Origin: Thermoleophilia bacterium
Lineage (GTDB): Bacteria > Actinomycetota > Thermoleophilia > Gaiellales > SKUG01
Assembly (NCBI GenBank): GCA_025964435.1
Contig: JAOPYV010000044.1
Span: forward strand, 1-36,298
Direction of reading: 5' to 3'
DNA length: 36,298 bases
The notes under the pieces were generated by a model, which saw nothing but the letters and a program-made list of their open reading frames with translations, was not told the origin of the DNA and made no database searches. Each line of letters starts with the position of its first letter. The stretch's first letter is position 1. Below are positions 24,708 through 33,605 of the stretch, one piece after another. The translations under genes and the position numbers were made by a program.

Positions 24708-25541
24708 TCAGCGCAGGTGACGTGCTGCCTGCGCGACGACTGACATGACCTCGCGGTTGCCCGACGCGCGTGCGGTGGATCGCATCGCATCGGCCACGTC
24801 ACCGAACGCAAGCGGCCGATCCGGCTGCTTCGCGAGGTCGCGCATCGTGCCGCGCAGGATCGTCCGCATGTCAGTCCAGCCGAGCGCTTCGGTGCCGTGG
24901 AAGGCATTCGTCACGGGTGCCCCACCGGCATGGGCGTCGAAGTCGAGGTCGAAGTTCGCCGCGGCGGCGCGTACGTCGCGGACCGTCATCGACAGTCGCT
25001 CAGGCGCGATCACGTCGCGGCCGAACTCATGCCCGACGGGACCGAGCTGCCACGCGCGCTTGTGGAGGGCGCCCGCGACGTCGGAGAGACCCTCGCGGAT
25101 CGCCCGGTCCTCGGATTCGATCCGGCTCAGGCGGCGCTCGGCGCGTTCCGAGCGCGGCGGACGTGCGTCCTGCCACGTCCACGGCCGCAGCTCGTTGGTC
25201 GCGTCATGCATCAGCTCGTGCGCGATCACGCCCCTGTCCATCGTGAGGGCATCGAGCGGTCCGGCGTAGAGCGTGTGCGATGCGGTATCCATCGCGGCAG
25301 CACTCATGCCGGGCAGGTCGGTCACGACTGTCAGGGGTCGCGTGGCGAAGTTCGGCAGCTGCTCGGCACCGAGCATCGAGTGCAGGTCGTGCGCCGCATC
25401 GGCGACGAGGTCGCGCATCTGCCAGAGGCGCGGTGCATGCGCGATGAAGTTGGGGGTGGGGGCGAGGTGGGACGTGACGCTGACCGGCCAGGCGCGCGGG
25501 CCCTGTATCGCTGCGGCCACCGATGTTCCCTCGATCGCCAT
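24708..25541 (-). CDS. HExxH zincin-like protein 3, thermolysin-like motif
   Basis: This is a 277-residue protein with no signal peptide. RGVIAHELMHDATNE holds HELMH at 108-112. IREGLSDVAGAL holds a Glu150-x-x-x-Asp154 pair, the arrangement of the M4 (thermolysin-like) HExxH plus ExxSD motif, though the spacing of 38 residues is longer than in thermolysin. No propeptide is visible, and the rest of the protein does not match M4 peptidases in my reading. The ATG at 25541 has AGGGGG at a suitable distance; an upstream in-frame ATG at 25592 is an alternative. It is divergent from the small helical protein at 25659 and 3 nt from yebC. The function is unknown. Confidence 0.7.
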   Translation of the reverse strand: MAIEGTSVAAAIQGPRAWPVSVTSHLAPTPNFIAHAPRLWQMRDLVADAAHDLHSMLGAEQLPNFATRPLTVVTDLPGMSAAAMDTASHTLYAGPLDALTMDRGVIAHELMHDATNELRPWTWQDARPPRSERAERRLSRIESEDRAIREGLSDVAGALHKRAWQLGPVGHEFGRDVIAPERLSMTVRDVRAAAANFDLDFDAHAGGAPVTNAFHGTEALGWTDMRTILRGTMRDLAKQPDRPLAFGDVADAMRSTARASGNREVMSVVAQAARHLR

Positions 25542-25658
25542 CTGGCGTGACCCCCTGCCGATGTGTCGTGTGGGCTGGGACTGTCGTTGCATCTGACTGA
25601 TCCCGACGCCTCGCCAAACCCGATAGAGCGGTAGGGGAATCGAACCGGGGGAACCACC

Positions 25659-26099: not shown

Positions 26100-26666
26100 G
26101 TGACCTTCGCGACCCCCGCTCCGCCGGTGCACCAGCCCGGCACCCCGCTGCGCATCCTCGGCATCGATCCCGGCACCGCCTCGACGGGCTTCGGCGTCGT
26201 CGACCGGTTGGGCGTGCGGATGACCCCGGTCTGGTACGACTGCCTGACCACGTCGCCGCGGGAGGCACCGGCTGCGCGCCTGGTTCGCATCGCCCAGGCG
26301 ACGCGCGAGATCGTGGAGCGGATGCAGCCGCACGCGATGGCGATCGAGGAGCTGTTCTTCGGCGCCAGCGCGAAGGCGGCGCTCGCCGTCGGGCAGGCGC
26401 GCGGCGTCTGCATGGTGATCTGTGCCGAGGCGGGCATCCCCGTCTACGAGTACAACAACAGCACGATCAAGATGGCGGTGACCGGCTACGGTCGTGCCGA
26501 CAAGCTCCAGGTCATGGAGATGGTGAAGCACCAGCTCGGCATGAGCGAGGTGCCCCGGCCCGACCACGCGGCCGACGCACTCGCCATCGCGATCACCCAC
26601 GCGGGCTCGATGCACGTGGACATCGTGGCGGCCAGGACACGGACGCGCACGCCTCGATCCCGCTGA
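26100..26666 (+). CDS. ruvC: Holliday junction endonuclease RuvC
   Basis: This 188-residue resolvase cuts Holliday junctions within the RuvABC complex. The RNase H-like acidic site is visible: Asp23 in LGIDPGTASTGFG, Glu83 in AIEELFFG, and the C-terminal HAADALAIAITH (156-167) providing His156 and Asp159. E. coli has Asp at the first of these, while the Thermus enzyme also uses His. The start is a GTG at 26100, giving about 15 disordered residues before the core. GAACAT (26088-26093) ends 6 nt upstream. A C-terminal Arg/Thr tail follows. ruvA and ruvB lie downstream on the same strand. Confidence 0.95.
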   Translation: MTFATPAPPVHQPGTPLRILGIDPGTASTGFGVVDRLGVRMTPVWYDCLTTSPREAPAARLVRIAQATREIVERMQPHAMAIEELFFGASAKAALAVGQARGVCMVICAEAGIPVYEYNNSTIKMAVTGYGRADKLQVMEMVKHQLGMSEVPRPDHAADALAIAITHAGSMHVDIVAARTRTRTPRSR

Positions 26667-26732
26667 GCAGCGCCTCGACGAGGTAGTGGCGCGCTACCGA
26701 TGGCGTCCGGCGCTCCGGTCAGACTTTCCCCC

Positions 26733-27359
26733 ATGATTGCCCGCCTCACCGGTCGCTGCGTCCATGCCGACGCGGATTCGCTCATCGTCGATGTCGGCGG
26801 TGTCGGCTACCTCGTGCGTGCCACGACCGGCGTGCTGGTCGCTGCACGGACCCACCCAGAGGAGGTGACGGTCCACATCCACACGAGCGTGCGTGAGGAC
26901 GCGATCCAGCTCTTCGGCTTCGCGAGCGTCGCGGAGCAGTCGGTCTTCGAGCGCCTCACCAGCCTGCAGGGAGTCGGCCCCAAGGTCGCCATCGGCGTGC
27001 TCAGCTCGCTCAGCCCGCAGGACGTGCGGCGCGCCACCGACGTGGAGGACGTGGCGCTGCTGCAGTCCGTCCCCGGTGTCGGCCCCAAGGTCGCGCGGCG
27101 GATCGTGACCGAGCTCAAGGGCAAGCTCGACGACATCGTGCCGCCCATGACCACCTTTGCGGCCACCGTCGAGGATGGCGCCGCGATGCTCGATCACCGC
27201 GCCACCTTCTACGAGGCGCGTGAGGCGCTGGTCGGCCTTGGCATGGGCATTCCCGAAGCCGACGCGGCGCTCGCCGGCACGGCTGAGGACGCGACCGCGG
27301 CCGAGCGCGTCAAGCAGGCACTGGCAGCAACGAAGAAGACCAAGGCGGCGAAGCGATGA
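26733..27359 (+). CDS. ruvA: Holliday junction branch migration protein RuvA
   Basis: This 208-residue junction-binding subunit forms tetramers on Holliday junctions and loads RuvB. It begins [10 protein letters not shown], the usual family start, so the ATG at 26733 is preferred over the in-frame ATG at 26700. Two helix-hairpin-helix segments are visible ([22 protein letters not shown] and [24 protein letters not shown]). The C-terminal RuvB-binding domain (about 160-200: [22 protein letters not shown]) is also present. Its stop overlaps the ruvB start (ATGA), a standard coupling. Confidence 0.96.
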
Positions 27360-29896
27360 GCGACCTCGACTTCTCCCACAAGCCGGGCATCCCGGTGGGC
27401 GATCCGGGCACAGGTACGCCCGGTGGCGCACCGCGCGAGGAGGGCTCGCCGATGCGCAGCCCGATCGCCGACGCCGAATCCCGCCGCGGCGACGACGAGC
27501 TGGACCGCTCGCTGCGCCCGAAGAGCCTCGACGACTTCGTCGGCCAGAAGCGCGTCCGTGAGCAGCTGCAGGTCTTCATCGACGCTGCGCGGCATCGCGA
27601 CGAGGCGCTCGACCACGCGCTGTTCGCCGGCCCGCCCGGGCTCGGCAAGTGCGTCACGCCCGACACGATGGTCTTCACGACGCACGGCATGGAGCCGATC
27701 GGTGGACTCGGCGTCGTCGGTGGCGAGAGCTGGCAGCCGATCACCCGACCGATCGCCGGCCTCTACGGAACACGCACGGCCGACTACTTCTACGACAACG
27801 GTGACGGGCCGACGCTCCGGGTCACCACCCGCGCGGGCTACCGTGTCGAAGGCACGCCGAACCACCCGCTGCTGGTCAAGGGCAACGATGGACGGCTGCA
27901 GTTCCGCCGACTCGGTGAGCTCCGCTTCGGCGATGAGGTTGCAGTGCGTCTCGGCGCGCAGGTCTTCGGCTCCAACACGAAGCTGCACGTCGAAGGCGTC
28001 GGCATTCCGAGCATGCAGGACCCTGCACGCACGACTGACGAGCTCGAGCCGGACCTGGCGCGCCTGCTCGGCCTGCTGCTCGACGGTGGGCGCATCTCGC
28101 CCGGCGGCGACGGCATCGTCTTCGTCACCCGTGACGCAGTCCGCGCGGAGGAGTTCCAGGCCTGCGCCCAGTCGGCGCTGTGCCTGACGGTGGAGTCCTT
28201 CGGGTCCGGCCCGCTCGGTGAGCGCTGGGGCGCACGCAGCCCACGCGTTGCCACCTTCCTGCAGGGGCTCGGACTCACGCGCGAGGGTTTCGCCGACGTG
28301 CCCGAGTGCATCTACCGCGCGCCGCGACTGCTCGTCGCCGAGTTCCTGCGCGGCCTGTTCTGGGGCGTCGAGCATGCACCTGTCTTCAGCCACCAGGAGC
28401 GCACGGTCGTCGCGCACCTGCAGCTGATGCTCGCCAACTTCGGCATCGAGTCGAGCATCCTGCCGAGCGAGCGGGGCTGGGCCCTGCGCGCCAGCTCCGA
28501 GCCCGCGAAGTTCGATTCGATGCACCCGGACGAGTTCGGTGACATCCACGATCCCTACGCCGAGGTCGGTGGACAGCACCATCACGGCGACGAGCCCCGC
28601 GACGCTGCCGCACGATTGCGCGATCGCGAGCGCAACACGCAGCGGGCCCAGGTGTCGACGCCACTGGCCGAGACGCGCGACGGTCGCGAGGGTGGCGTCG
28701 GCTTCGGCCTGACCGCTGCCGGCGTCCTCGTCGCGATGGAGGCGGAGGAGATCGACTCCTACCGCCGCGGCGGCGCACGCGCCGACGACATCGTGCCGGT
28801 CCGGGTCGAGAACACGGGGCGGGTGCAGATCGAATCGGTCACCGTGGCCGAGGTCGAGCCGGTCGAGCGCGGTCGCGCCCTGCTGCGCGAGACCGAGCAC
28901 GACCACCGCGCGCTCGCCGTGCGAAGCGTGCGGTCCAAGCTGCGCCGGGACGAGATGGTGGAGCTTGCCTGGGAGCCGGTCGTCTCGATCGAGCCGGGCA
29001 CGGCACACACCGTCGACGTCAGCGTCCCCGACGGCCACACCTTCATCGGCAACGGCATCATCTGTCACAACACGACGCTCGCCAGCGTCGTCGCCAACGA
29101 GCTCGGCTCCACGATGCACGCCACGAGTGGGCCCGCCCTGGAGAAGAAGGCCGATGTCGCTGCCATCCTCACGGCGCTCGGGCCACACGACGTGCTGTTC
29201 ATCGACGAGATCCATCGCCTCAGCACCGCGATCGAGGAAGTCCTCTACACGGCGATGGAGGACTACCAGATCGACATCGTGCTCGGTCAGGGTCCCGCAG
29301 CGCGCACGCTGCGACTCGACCTGGAACCGTTCACGCTCGTCGGTGCCACGACCCGGGCGGGCCTGCTGACGACGCCGCTGCGCGATCGCTTCGGCATCAC
29401 CCAGCGGCTCGAGTACTACGACGTCGCCGAGCTGACCGATGTCGTGCGTCGCTCCGCGCGCCTGCTCGAGCTGGAGATCGACGACCAGTCCGCCGGCGAG
29501 ATCGCGTCTCGTTCACGTGGCACGCCACGTATCGCCAATCGCCTGCTGCGTCGGGTCCGCGACGTCGCGCAAGTGCGGCACGCCGGCCACATCACGCTCG
29601 ACATCACGCAGGAAGCGCTCGACCTCGTCGACATCGACGCCGTCGGCCTCGACCGCATCGACCGGCAGATCCTCGAGGTGATCCTCTCGAAGTTCGGTGG
29701 CGGTCCCGTCGGCCTGTCGACGCTCGCCGTCGCGATCGGCGAGGAGCAGCACACGATCGAGGATGTCTACGAGCCGTTCCTGCTGCAGCGTGGATTCCTG
29801 ATGCGCACTCCGCGTGGGCGCGTCATCACGCCGCGCGGCCGGGCGCACCTCGGGGCCGCGGGCTTCGATGTCACGACGGCCGGCGAGCTGTTCTGA
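27356..29896 (+). CDS. ruvB: RuvB Holliday junction helicase precursor containing an intein
   Basis: The 846-residue frame is RuvB interrupted by a 474-residue intein. The N-extein (1-98) holds a 50-residue disordered extension, [11 protein letters not shown] and Walker A as far as GPPGLGK. The C-extein resumes with [12 protein letters not shown], then FIDEIHR (Walker B), GATTRAG, the sensor and arginine-finger region, and the winged-helix domain ending [10 protein letters not shown]. Removing the intein restores GPPGLGKTTLA and leaves a 372-residue RuvB, the AAA+ motor that drives branch migration with RuvA. Without splicing, the ATP site is disrupted. Its start overlaps ruvA, and a strong terminator follows at 29911-29939. 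Confidence 0.97.
27650..29071 (+). other. Intein in the RuvB P-loop, with degenerate LAGLIDADG endonuclease
   Basis: The intein is 474 residues, from Cys1 ([18 protein letters not shown], block A) to Asn474. Block B is [17 protein letters not shown] with TPNH at 69-72. Block F lies at about 443-463 and block G is GNGIICHN (467-474), followed by Thr as the +1 extein residue. The splicing residues Cys1, block B Thr/His, and the terminal His-Asn are all present, so splicing is likely. The middle (about 130-290) has two LAGLIDADG-like helices, [10 protein letters not shown] (140-149) and LRGLFWGVE (233-241). The catalytic acidic position appears to be Gly and Val respectively, so the homing endonuclease is probably dead. 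A linker of about 130 residues (285-420) has no recognisable motif. Confidence 0.95.
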
Positions 29897-29967: not shown

Positions 29968-30849
29968 TCAGGCGAGCTCGAGCTCCAGCTGCGCGATCGG
30001 TGCGATCAGCGCCGTACGGATCGACTGGGTCGGTCGACCGATCAGTCGGCTCAGGTCGCCACTGGTCGTATCGAGGTGACCCTTCGCCAGCCCCGCGTCC
30101 GAGTCGGCGAGGATGCTGGCGAACGCCGCGGGCAGGCCCGCGCCCTCGAGCACCTGGGCGTATTCGGCCTCGGGCAGGTCGGTGTAGACGACCTCGGTGC
30201 CGCTCACGTCCGCGATGATCTCGGCCAGCTCGGCCAGTGACACGCGCTCGTCGCCACCCAGCTCGTAGGTCGCGCCTTCGTGGTCCGCTCCGACCAGCAC
30301 CGCAGCTGCGGCTGCGGCGAAGTCATCGCGCGTCGCCGGCGCGAACTTCGTGTCGCCACCGGCACCGAAGAGGGCGCCATGCTCGAGTGCGGCACCCAGG
30401 GTTCCCTCGTAGTTCTCGATGTACCAGCCGTTGCGCAGCAACGTGAAGGCGATGCCCGACGCGCGGAGCAGCTCCTCGGTGGTTCGATGCTCGCCTGCGA
30501 GCTGCAGGTCCGATTCGTCGGCGCGCAGCACGCTGGTGTAGGCGACGTAGGGCACCTCTGCCTCGAGCGCCGCCGAGATCACGTTGCCGTGGTGCAGGGC
30601 GCGCTGGCCAACCTCGCTGGAGGAGATGAGCAGCAGGCGATCGACGCCGGTCAGCGCAGTGACGAGGGCCGACGGGTCGGTGTAGTCGGCGACGCGGACC
30701 TGCACGCCGGACGTGGCCAGTGGCGCTGCCTTGTCGACGTCGCGGACGATCGCGACGATGTCGGACGGCGCGGTGCCGCCCTCGAGCAGGTGGGCGATGA
30801 CGAGGCGGCCGAGGTTGCCGGTGGCGCCGGTGATGGCAAGACGGGTCAT
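29968..30849 (-). CDS. NmrA-like NAD(P)-binding oxidoreductase, QorB-type
   Basis: This 293-residue atypical SDR of the NmrA/HSCARG group has the N-terminal dinucleotide motif ITGATGNLGR (6-15). Next come IVRDVDKA, LLLISSSEVGQRALHHGNVISAA and FTLLRNGWYIENY, which are typical of QorB (YtfG) quinone oxidoreductases. It lacks the Tyr-x-x-x-Lys site of classical SDRs, as the group does. The likely role is NAD(P)H-dependent quinone reduction or redox sensing. The ATG at 30849 has GGAG 5 nt upstream. It is the last gene of the minus-strand cluster headed by the Atg22-like transporter but also has its own promoter (30903-30930). Confidence 0.85.
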   Translation of the reverse strand: MTRLAITGATGNLGRLVIAHLLEGGTAPSDIVAIVRDVDKAAPLATSGVQVRVADYTDPSALVTALTGVDRLLLISSSEVGQRALHHGNVISAALEAEVPYVAYTSVLRADESDLQLAGEHRTTEELLRASGIAFTLLRNGWYIENYEGTLGAALEHGALFGAGGDTKFAPATRDDFAAAAAAVLVGADHEGATYELGGDERVSLAELAEIIADVSGTEVVYTDLPEAEYAQVLEGAGLPAAFASILADSDAGLAKGHLDTTSGDLSRLIGRPTQSIRTALIAPIAQLELELA

Positions 30850-30878
30850 GAAGGCTCCAAGGTTCGTGGAATACGGTG

Positions 30879-30930
30879 CGCGCAATTCGCGCGGTTCGAT
30901 CCATGCTAGCAGATTCGATTGCGCCCGCAA
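30879..30930 (-). promoter_or_regulatory. qorB promoter with extended -10 and operator-like inverted repeat
   Basis: On the minus strand TTGCGG (30925-30930) and TGC-TAGCAT (-10 at 30903-30908, with an extended TGn) are separated by 16 nt. Just downstream of the predicted start, CGCGC-AATTC-GCGCG (30879-30893) forms an inverted repeat. This places a possible repressor site at about +3 to +17. The tetR gene immediately upstream is the obvious candidate regulator, but the repeat does not resemble the operator at 33618. Confidence 0.55.
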
Positions 30931-30934
30931 CTAT

Positions 30935-31531
30935 CTACTCGGGGGAGCCCGTCATCCACGTGCGGTGGCTGGCGAGCACGCCGTCGTACTCGCCCTGACC
31001 GACGAGGCCGCGGGTCCCGAGCGAGGCTCCCAGCAGTCCGAGCGCGATGATCGTCCACGCCTCACCGTGCGGGTCGCGGTCGGGGAGGAGCCCCCCTGCG
31101 CCGGCGCTCCGCTCGACGACGGAAGCCACATAGTCGTGCACTTCCCGCATGCGGCGCGCGAGGTGCTCGTCGATCGCCTCGATGCCCGTCGTCTCCACGA
31201 GCCCGCGCATCCACATGCGCGCCACCGAGGGTTCGCTGCGAACGATCTCCAGGAAGGACCGGCCGGGCATGCGCCAGTGGCGCGCCTCGGGCTCGAGGTC
31301 GTAGAGCTCGTCGCAGCGCACGAGCATCCGGCTCCATGCGGCGTCGACGCACTCGAGGAAGAGCTGCTGCTTCGCACCGAAGTGGCGGAAGATGAGCGCC
31401 TCGTTGACACCCGCGGTGCGCGCGAGCCAAGACGTCGTCGTCCCGGCATAGCCACGCTCCGCGAAGCAGGTCGTGGCTGCCGCGAGGATGCCGCTGCGTC
31501 GCGCGTCGGCTGACATGCGGGGACCACTCAT
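30935..31531 (-). CDS. TetR-family transcriptional regulator
   Basis: This 198-residue protein has the N-terminal TetR DNA-binding domain. ILAAATTCFAERGYAGTTTSWLARTAGVNEALIFRHFGAKQQLF spans residues 15-58, with the helix-turn-helix at about 31-53. The C-terminal ligand domain is unassigned. Its ATG overlaps the stop of the plsC-like gene (ATGA), so it is translated with the transporter and acyltransferase upstream. It probably represses that operon through the palindrome at 33618-33637, which would be autoregulation. The natural inducer is unknown; the acyltransferase neighbour hints at a lipid or acyl compound. Confidence 0.92.
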   Translation of the reverse strand: MSGPRMSADARRSGILAAATTCFAERGYAGTTTSWLARTAGVNEALIFRHFGAKQQLFLECVDAAWSRMLVRCDELYDLEPEARHWRMPGRSFLEIVRSEPSVARMWMRGLVETTGIEAIDEHLARRMREVHDYVASVVERSAGAGGLLPDRDPHGEAWTIIALGLLGASLGTRGLVGQGEYDGVLASHRTWMTGSPE

Positions 31532-32286
31532 CGCTCCACCTCGCTGACACGGAGCGCATCCTCGAGCGACGCACCGATCGGCGGACGCCCGCCTGGGCGA
31601 TGATGGATCACGCGCGCCTGCTCGAAGCAGCGCGTCACCTCGCCCCAGATCGCATCGCGTACCTCTGCGACACGCTCGCCGGAGGGCTGCTCTTCCCGGG
31701 CGAAGCTGATCGGCTCACCCCAGACAGCGGTGACCTTGGGTCGATGCTGCCACCAGCGGCGGCCATAGGCGCTCGCCCGCTTGGCGCCGTAGGCAGCGAC
31801 GGGCACGACGGGTGCCCCGGTCAACAACGCGAGGATGGCCAGGCCGTCGCGCGGCGTGGCGAGCCCGTCGTGGTCGAGTGACATGCGCCCCTCCATGAAC
31901 AGCACCAGGCCGTCGCCGCTCTCGACGACGGTGCGGGCCACGGCGAGCGCCGACGCGCTGCGCCCACCGCCGCGCAGCACGGGAAAGCCGCCGCCCCAGC
32001 GCACGAACCGACCTGCGATCGGCCACCCGAGCGCGTCCGCCTTGGCCATGAAACGCAGCCGCGTACGCGGTTGGCCGAGCCCGAAGATGAAGGGATCCAT
32101 GTACGCGCCGTGCGGCCCGGGGGCGAGCAGGAACCCGCCCTCCTCGGGAACCCGCGGCCAGTGACCGTAGCCGCGGTAGCGATAGATCATCCGGCCGGGT
32201 CGCGCCACGAGCACTCGGCAGAACCGCTGGAAGCCGGAGGGGTCGTGATGTGCCCAGTCCTCGGGTGTCAGGTGGTCGATCTTCAT
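31528..32286 (-). CDS. PlsC-type 1-acylglycerol-3-phosphate acyltransferase family protein
   Basis: This 252-residue acyltransferase has motif I HGAYMD (His59 to Asp64, the HX4D catalytic pair) and motif III LFMEGRMS (129-136, the FxEGxxS element), with the PVVPVAAYG strand further on. PlsC-family enzymes acylate lysophosphatidic acid or related lipids at the inner membrane. There is no long N-terminal membrane anchor; residues 1-50 are soluble in character. The ATG at 32286 overlaps the transporter stop (ATGA), and its own stop overlaps the tetR start. An in-frame GTG at 32304 is an alternative start. Coupling to an Atg22-like exporter suggests joint handling of a lipid-related substrate, which is inference. 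Confidence 0.88.
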   Translation of the reverse strand: MKIDHLTPEDWAHHDPSGFQRFCRVLVARPGRMIYRYRGYGHWPRVPEEGGFLLAPGPHGAYMDPFIFGLGQPRTRLRFMAKADALGWPIAGRFVRWGGGFPVLRGGGRSASALAVARTVVESGDGLVLFMEGRMSLDHDGLATPRDGLAILALLTGAPVVPVAAYGAKRASAYGRRWWQHRPKVTAVWGEPISFAREEQPSGERVAEVRDAIWGEVTRCFEQARVIHHRPGGRPPIGASLEDALRVSEVER

Positions 32287-33605
32287 GCCTCCGCCACCTG
32301 CCACTCGTCGTCCGCGAAGCGCGGCGCATCACTGAGCGGTCGAAGCATCAACAACCCGGCGATGGCGGCCAGCGCGAGCATCGCCAGTGCTACGCGGCTT
32401 GCGTCGAGCACGCTCGCGGAGCCCTGGTCATGGAGCAGCCAGATCGTGCCGCCCCACAGCACGAGCGGACCGATGCCGGAGGAGAGCTTGCCGACGAGGT
32501 TGTAGATCCCGAAGAACTCGCCGCGCAGCTCGGGCGGTGTGAGCCGCATCATGAAGACGCGGTCGCTGGTCGCGACGCCGCCGAGGGTCGCGCCGATCGC
32601 CGGACCGAGCACCCAGACGAGCGTGGGGCTGCCGGTCGCCGCCGCGATGAGCAGCGTCGTGGCAGCGAGCACGAGGATGCCGCTCAGCACGCGCTTGGGG
32701 CCGACCCGCTCGACGAGGCGACCGCAGATGAATGCAGAGAGCGCCGCACTCACCATCGCGAGGCCGAGCACGGCGGTCTTGTCGCCCTTGCTGAAGTCGC
32801 CGACACGGCCCATGTAGACGGTCATGTACGCGATCACGGTGGCTGTCGCGTCGACGTAGAGGAAGCGGGCGATGAGGAAGCGCCCGGCCGCGCGGTGGTC
32901 GGAGCGGATATGGCGGGCCGTGCGCACGACCTGCTGCAGCGCGCCGCGAACGATCGCGCCCGTGCTGGACGTGCGGGCTCGCTGCGGGCGGCGCTCGCGC
33001 ACGAAGATGAAGATCGGTACCGCGAAGACCGCGAAGAGGATCGCCGTCGGCAGGAACGCCTGCTGGAGGTCGTTCTCCGGCACGATGATCGTCAACAGGA
33101 TGCTCGCGATGAGCACGCCGACGTAGCCGAGGCCGACGCCGAAACCGGAGACCGCACCATGATGCTCGGGCGGCGCGACCGTCGCCAAGAGCGGGTCGTA
33201 CATCGAGAGCGACAGCTGGAACGCGAAGATCGCGAAGCCGGCCATCACGAGCGCGGCCGTGACGGAGGAGATCATGCCGAGGCTGACTGTGGCGAGCACG
33301 CAGAGCGTGGTGAACACGGCGAGGAAGGGCAGTCGCCGGCCGAGCTGGTCGCTGATCGCACCGAGCGCCGGCATCGCCGCGATCAGCACGAGCCCGACGA
33401 TGAACCCCATGACGCCGACGTGCCAGTCGGGTCGGCCCTGCTGGTCGATCACCCACTCGTTGAAGTAGCGGGTGATGACGGCGAAGGAGAAGATCGTGTT
33501 CGCGAAGTCGTAGAAGGCCCACGCGACGACCGGACGGCTGAAGAGGCGGAACACGCGTGGATCACGTGAAGCCGTGTCGGGGCTGGTGGCAACGGTCGTA
33601 TCCAT
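32283..33605 (-). CDS. MFS transporter of the Atg22/UMF1 family
   Basis: This 440-residue membrane protein has about 12 helices. The family hallmark WAFYDFANTIFSFAVITRYFNEW sits near the N-terminus, with SDQLGRRLPFL after helix 2 and PPELRGEFFGIYNLVGKLSSGIGP in the C-terminal half. Members resemble the yeast vacuolar amino-acid effluxer Atg22; bacterial substrates are mostly unknown. GAGGAG lies 5 nt before the ATG at 33605. It heads a four-gene cluster (transporter, plsC-like, tetR, qorB-like). The first three genes are joined by 4-nt overlaps. A strong promoter with an overlapping TetR-type palindrome lies directly upstream. Confidence 0.9.
   Translation of the reverse strand: MDTTVATSPDTASRDPRVFRLFSRPVVAWAFYDFANTIFSFAVITRYFNEWVIDQQGRPDWHVGVMGFIVGLVLIAAMPALGAISDQLGRRLPFLAVFTTLCVLATVSLGMISSVTAALVMAGFAIFAFQLSLSMYDPLLATVAPPEHHGAVSGFGVGLGYVGVLIASILLTIIVPENDLQQAFLPTAILFAVFAVPIFIFVRERRPQRARTSSTGAIVRGALQQVVRTARHIRSDHRAAGRFLIARFLYVDATATVIAYMTVYMGRVGDFSKGDKTAVLGLAMVSAALSAFICGRLVERVGPKRVLSGILVLAATTLLIAAATGSPTLVWVLGPAIGATLGGVATSDRVFMMRLTPPELRGEFFGIYNLVGKLSSGIGPLVLWGGTIWLLHDQGSASVLDASRVALAMLALAAIAGLLMLRPLSDAPRFADDEWQVAEA

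Follow-up and report, generated by a model that had tools for sequence, protein, structure and literature searches.

A class-1 intein at the Walker A lysine-threonine junction of RuvB in a family of Thermoleophilia

RuvB is the motor that moves DNA crossovers (Holliday junctions) in repair. Inteins favor the P-loops of DNA-replication and repair ATPases. According to a review, 70% of them are located in ATP-binding domains (PMC10663303), and for several the splicing step has been found to be controlled. Splicing of the P-loop intein DnaBi1 is under redox and zinc control (PMC6195587, PMC7360933), and the RadA and MoaA inteins are controlled by heat, single-stranded DNA (ssDNA), and disulfide formation (PMC10663303). 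A table in one review lists RuvB itself among the bacterial hosts of inteins (PMC5874633).

The ruvB gene and its intein

The locus described here lies on a 36,298-nucleotide contig (JAOPYV010000044.1, assembly GCA_025964435.1) of a Thermoleophilia bacterium of the order Gaiellales, and this whole stretch is referred to as the window. An open frame of 846 codons (27356..29896, +) encodes an 846-amino acid RuvB precursor that scored above the cut-offs of both NF000868 (E 2.4e-146) and TIGR00635 (E 6.3e-134). Upstream in the same gene cluster are ruvC (26100..26666, +; PF02075, E 2.2e-43) and ruvA (26700..27359, +; PF01330, E 1.8e-18), giving the order ruvC-ruvA-ruvB, with the ruvB start inside the last ruvA codons and an overlap of 4 bases. 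The protein was identified as RuvB by these model matches, by a Walker A motif that is complete upon excision of the insert, and by the adjoining ruvA. The source genome (3.2 Mb, 88% complete) has a single copy of ruvB, the remaining matches to RuvB models being weak and of AAA type, and PF14890 finds one intein in it, the one in RuvB. On the minus strand, a frame adjoining ruvC (24708-25616) contains HELMHD and EGLSDVAG motifs that recall a thermolysin-like metallopeptidase and has no Pfam match. A second minus-strand block (29968-33605) encodes an NmrA-like protein, a TetR regulator, an acyltransferase, and an MFS transporter and is located between ruvB and the apparent downstream genes queA and tgt.

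A preliminary description had placed a 474-residue block, beginning with Cys and ending with His-Asn, between the Walker A Lys and Thr of RuvB, and this placement was borne out to the base. The DNA reads ...GGCAAG and then TGC across the N-terminal junction (between 27649 and 27650), and ...CACAAC and then ACG across the C-terminal junction (between 29071 and 29072), after which the protein continues as TTLASVV. The intervening 1422 bases (27650..29071, +) amount to 474 codons between Lys98 and Thr573. The N-extein (residues 1-98; 27356..27649, +) ends in GPPGLGK, which is Walker A through its Lys, and corresponds to TIGR00635 positions 1-44. The C-extein (29072..29893, +) extends from Thr573, the Walker A Thr and the +1 nucleophile, to the end of RuvB and corresponds to positions 43-304, the model match being interrupted by the intein at positions 44/43. 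Subtraction of the insert (846-474) leaves the 372-residue RuvB that had been expected. When the flanks are joined without the intein they give GPPGLGKTTLASV, and GPPGLGKTTLA, as in the joined exteins, is what eight RuvBs of the class that lack an intein have at this site.

The further claim that the block is an intein was confirmed by Pfam and NCBIfam intein models, all above their curated cut-offs, and by the presence of the same block at the same site in four further genomes. The matches are to PF14890 (Intein_splicing; E 5e-11, 43.1 bits against a cut-off of 35.8), to TIGR01445 (intein N-terminus; residues 1-76, 27.6 bits against 24.5), and to TIGR01443 (intein C-terminus; residues 456-474, 25.1 bits against 15.6). 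The five RuvB inteins all share the class-1 residue Cys1 (27650-27652), the Thr and His of the block B TxxH motif (T69-P-N-H72), and, in blocks F and G, D456, H463, H473, and N474, followed by an equally invariant +1 residue, Thr573.

Conservation is uneven along the intein. Within the genus, identity is 89-90% in the N-terminal splicing region with Cys1 and block B (27650..27964, +) and 90-92% in the C-terminal splicing region (28955..29071, +), which comprises blocks F and G with D456, H463, Cys472 at position -3, His473, and Asn474. A variable tail (residues 286-394; 28505..28831, +) contains indels, is 53-62% identical within the genus (calculated over residues 286-400), and has half the length in the sister genus. 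A frameshift origin of this odd hydrophilic stretch (28505-28831) was considered and rejected because the reading frame is maintained through it and four genomes can be aligned there. Between the tail and block F, residues 395-435 (28832..28954, +) have 83-90% identity to the window within the genus and 63% in the sister genus. This segment is conserved like the splicing blocks, and about 24 of its residues are missing from the other inteins in the comparison.

The endonuclease domain and the distribution of the intein

Residues 106-285 (27965..28504, +) constitute a degenerate LAGLIDADG endonuclease domain, recognized by alignment with NrdJ and phage terminase inteins and by a structural model searched with Foldseek. 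Motif 1 reads LLGLLLDGG (residues 139-147) and motif 2 reads LRGLFWGVE (residues 233-241). In the alignment with the NrdJ and terminase inteins, the catalytic acid positions are occupied by Gly in motif 1 and Val in motif 2 (sister genus Gly, Asn), so that none of the five RuvB inteins has an acid at either, and the hairpin following motif 2 is shortened by about 6 residues relative to the inteins used for comparison. An Asp precedes the catalytic position of motif 1 by one residue. The endonuclease model PF14528 matched the RuvB intein with E 0.07, under its cut-off. Structure prediction gave a mean pLDDT of 34 with 3 sequences and of 52 with 4 sequences, the latter usable for the endonuclease region only, the splicing domain with Cys1 and Cys472 being poorly modelled. 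Residues 131-280 (28040-28489) of the predicted structure m112d38364883 have a pLDDT of about 80, and a Foldseek search with them retrieved VMA inteins, I-DmoI, and WhiA with E values from 1e-10 to 1e-3. WhiA is a LAGLIDADG protein that serves as a transcription factor in actinobacteria. Judging by its motifs, the domain appears to be a remnant and not an active homing endonuclease. With both catalytic acids missing, the intein should no longer be able to home by its own nuclease, and since the acids are gone in both genera, the inactivation is probably old.

Every family member sampled has the intein at the same RuvB site. The sample is small, with four genomes from the genus of the window (its own source genome among them) and one from a sister genus, each <90% complete, and two of the carriers are public metagenome-assembled genomes (MAGs). 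The other three members of the genus have inteins with 75-78% identity to that of the window, and the sister genus one with 54%. Searches of the 129 genomes of the order and of samples from the class (399 genomes) and the phylum (397) yielded no other RuvB with this insert, the weaker matches outside the family being NrdJ and GyrA inteins. A phage collection contained no match to the RuvB intein at 80% coverage, and scanning viral sequences for GPPG(L/F)GK-Cys gave no RuvB intein either. Three viral candidates were rejected: L041, which reads GPPGFGK-Cys, is a phage DnaB-like helicase, and L042 and L043 do not read GPPGLGKC.

In the full-length tree, the five RuvB inteins form one clade with support of 100/100. 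Within it, the intein tree weakly supports the pairs window + G247 and G343 + G237, and for each of these four, the C-extein at the lowest non-synonymous distance is also that of its partner. Synonymous distances (dS) within the genus are 0.54-0.66 for the C-extein and 0.44-0.91 for the splicing blocks and endonuclease region, and this similarity suggests that intein and host diverged together. The GC content of the intein equals that of its flanks (65-73%). These data support the presence of the intein in the common ancestor of the family, followed by what would be vertical inheritance with ruvB. A direct origin from NrdJ or terminase inteins was considered because those inteins are also found at a Lys/Thr junction, and was rejected, as the tree shows separate deep clades with long branches.

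Splicing dependence, selection, and alternative readings

We consider it highly likely that this is a class-1 RuvB intein that is spliced out, nuclease-dead, and vertically inherited, and that it has been kept because impaired splicing of any kind would put an important motor of DNA repair out of action. The ruvB mRNA would be translated into the 846-residue precursor, in which the P-loop is interrupted and the ATPase presumably inactive. Cys1 would attack the carbonyl of Lys98, the N-extein would move to the hydroxyl of Thr573, and cyclization of Asn474 would excise the intein, so that ligation would restore the 372-residue RuvB with its GPPGLGKTTLA loop. Thr573 would thus act as the +1 residue and later, as the Walker A threonine, help bind Mg-ATP. 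The endonuclease would keep its fold without its acids, leaving an immobile intein passed on with ruvB since the family ancestor. The anatomy and junctions, the missing acids, the distribution, the shared divergence, and the purifying selection are observed features, while we infer the splicing chemistry and the inactivity of the precursor, along with vertical descent. The dependence of RuvB activity on splicing that had been proposed earlier is upheld in the latter sense: with the P-loop interrupted and a single ruvB in the genome, RuvB and P-loop biochemistry indicates that RuvB very probably cannot work unless the precursor is spliced.

Selection was compared among regions as dN/dS within the genus, with values that are rough, the synonymous sites being moderately divergent, and a ranking of regions that is clear. 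The C-extein gave 0.13-0.21, the N-terminal splicing block 0.11-0.19, and the C-terminal splicing block 0.05-0.17, from which the splicing blocks appear to be constrained as strongly as RuvB. The 41-residue segment before block F gave 0.12-0.33, the endonuclease region 0.18-0.30 with no indels over 180 codons, and the tail, with its indels, 0.30-0.58. In the homing-cycle model, such elements are expected to decay and then be lost. The model has selection on the endonuclease end at fixation (PMC1654191), so ongoing constraint on a dead domain needs another cause. As estimated from these alignments, the constraint seems to exceed the strict expectation for a purely passive remnant, and most simply it would reflect a domain that must fold without harming splicing.

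Several alternative readings were weighed against this one. That the block is a non-splicing in-frame insertion, with RuvB either working despite it or being a pseudogene, is scarcely credible: the class-1 intein residues are all present and invariant, the P-loop is interrupted, five genomes have the reading frame intact, and both exteins and intein are under strong purifying selection. Continued mobility, in which the intein would home within the family by its own nuclease, could draw on the retained and constrained LAGLIDADG fold and on the Asp next to the catalytic position of motif 1, but the non-acidic catalytic positions in all five inteins, the shortened hairpin, a divergence in step with that of RuvB and without signs of recent transfer, and the restriction to the family in the order, class, and phylum samples make it very improbable.

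A retained regulator is the remaining alternative, in which oxidation, metals, or the state of DNA would slow splicing and RuvB would be activated only when suitable; its sensor would be a disulfide or metal site formed by Cys1 and the Cys at -3, or DNA binding by the dead endonuclease fold. The RuvB inteins have two invariant cysteines besides Cys1, Cys178 and Cys472, and Cys472 (-3) is matched by Ser or Asn in 18 other class and phage inteins. The constraint on an endonuclease region that has lost its acids, the likeness of its fold to WhiA, and the precedents of DnaBi1 (PMC6195587, PMC7360933) and of the RadA and MoaA inteins (PMC10663303) also favor regulation. However, the Cys at -3 represents a single evolutionary event and not five independent ones, and conservation of the fold may only reflect that misfolding spoils splicing. 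We regard regulation as unlikely, and its more specific form, in which an immobile intein became fixed in RuvB maturation of one family with its dead LAGLIDADG domain kept to sense DNA state or redox (through Cys1 and Cys-3) and so to time activation of the motor, as rather improbable. Cys472, Cys178, and the constrained dead endonuclease can be taken as a lead on the redox or metal control through Cys1 that had also been suggested earlier, not as evidence of control, and the data can be explained by the splicing of an immobile, inherited intein without invoking a regulatory role.

Comparison with described inteins

Within the order and the class, the inteins of the ribonucleotide reductase NrdJ, at Lys/Thr and Gly sites, are full-length with a LAGLIDADG endonuclease and have about 25-32% identity to the RuvB intein. 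They differ in their host, in forming separate, well-supported clades, and in having Asn or Ser, not Cys, at -3, and the NrdJ Lys/Thr group retains an acidic residue in motif 1, unlike the RuvB intein. The Lys/Thr NrdJ inteins are found in L009, L010, L014, and L017 (ISK/C...HN/TVN, slashes marking the junctions), those in other members of the class being Gly/Thr, and the Lys/Thr junction is common to these sites and those of the RuvB and terminase inteins. The phage large-terminase intein (IMG/VR L040:1641-4937) also occupies a Walker A Lys/Thr junction (GRRSGK/C...HN/TAIG), with 29% identity to the RuvB intein over the N-terminal half and a C-terminus that matches as well, but it has a phage host protein, keeps the motif 2 Asp, and does not group specifically with the RuvB inteins.

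Pyrococcus RadA, a recombination ATPase, has an intein in its P-loop as RuvB does (PMC6195587, PMC10663303), although host protein and domain of life are different and control of splicing by heat and ssDNA is established for RadA. Mycobacterium DnaBi1 likewise interrupts Walker A in an ATPase that acts on DNA and has no active endonuclease, and in it, too, the Mg-binding P-loop hydroxyl residue doubles as the +1 nucleophile (PMC6195587). DnaBi1 is a class 3 mini-intein with a block F Cys and +1 Ser, whereas the RuvB intein is class 1, with Cys1, +1 Thr, and an apparently dead endonuclease fold that has been kept.

The RuvB entry in the review table (PMC5874633) shares the host name with the intein described here and is given without insertion site, species, or sequence. 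For the present RuvB intein, the insertion site is defined exactly, five natural alleles share an endonuclease that appears dead, and the family as sampled contains no relative free of the intein. Its main interest is as an apparently immobile, family-wide intein with a conserved dead endonuclease. A dead domain under purifying selection makes passive versus functional persistence of such inteins testable. RuvB was already known as an intein host, and to this are added the exact site, the seemingly inactive endonuclease, and retention throughout the sampled family.
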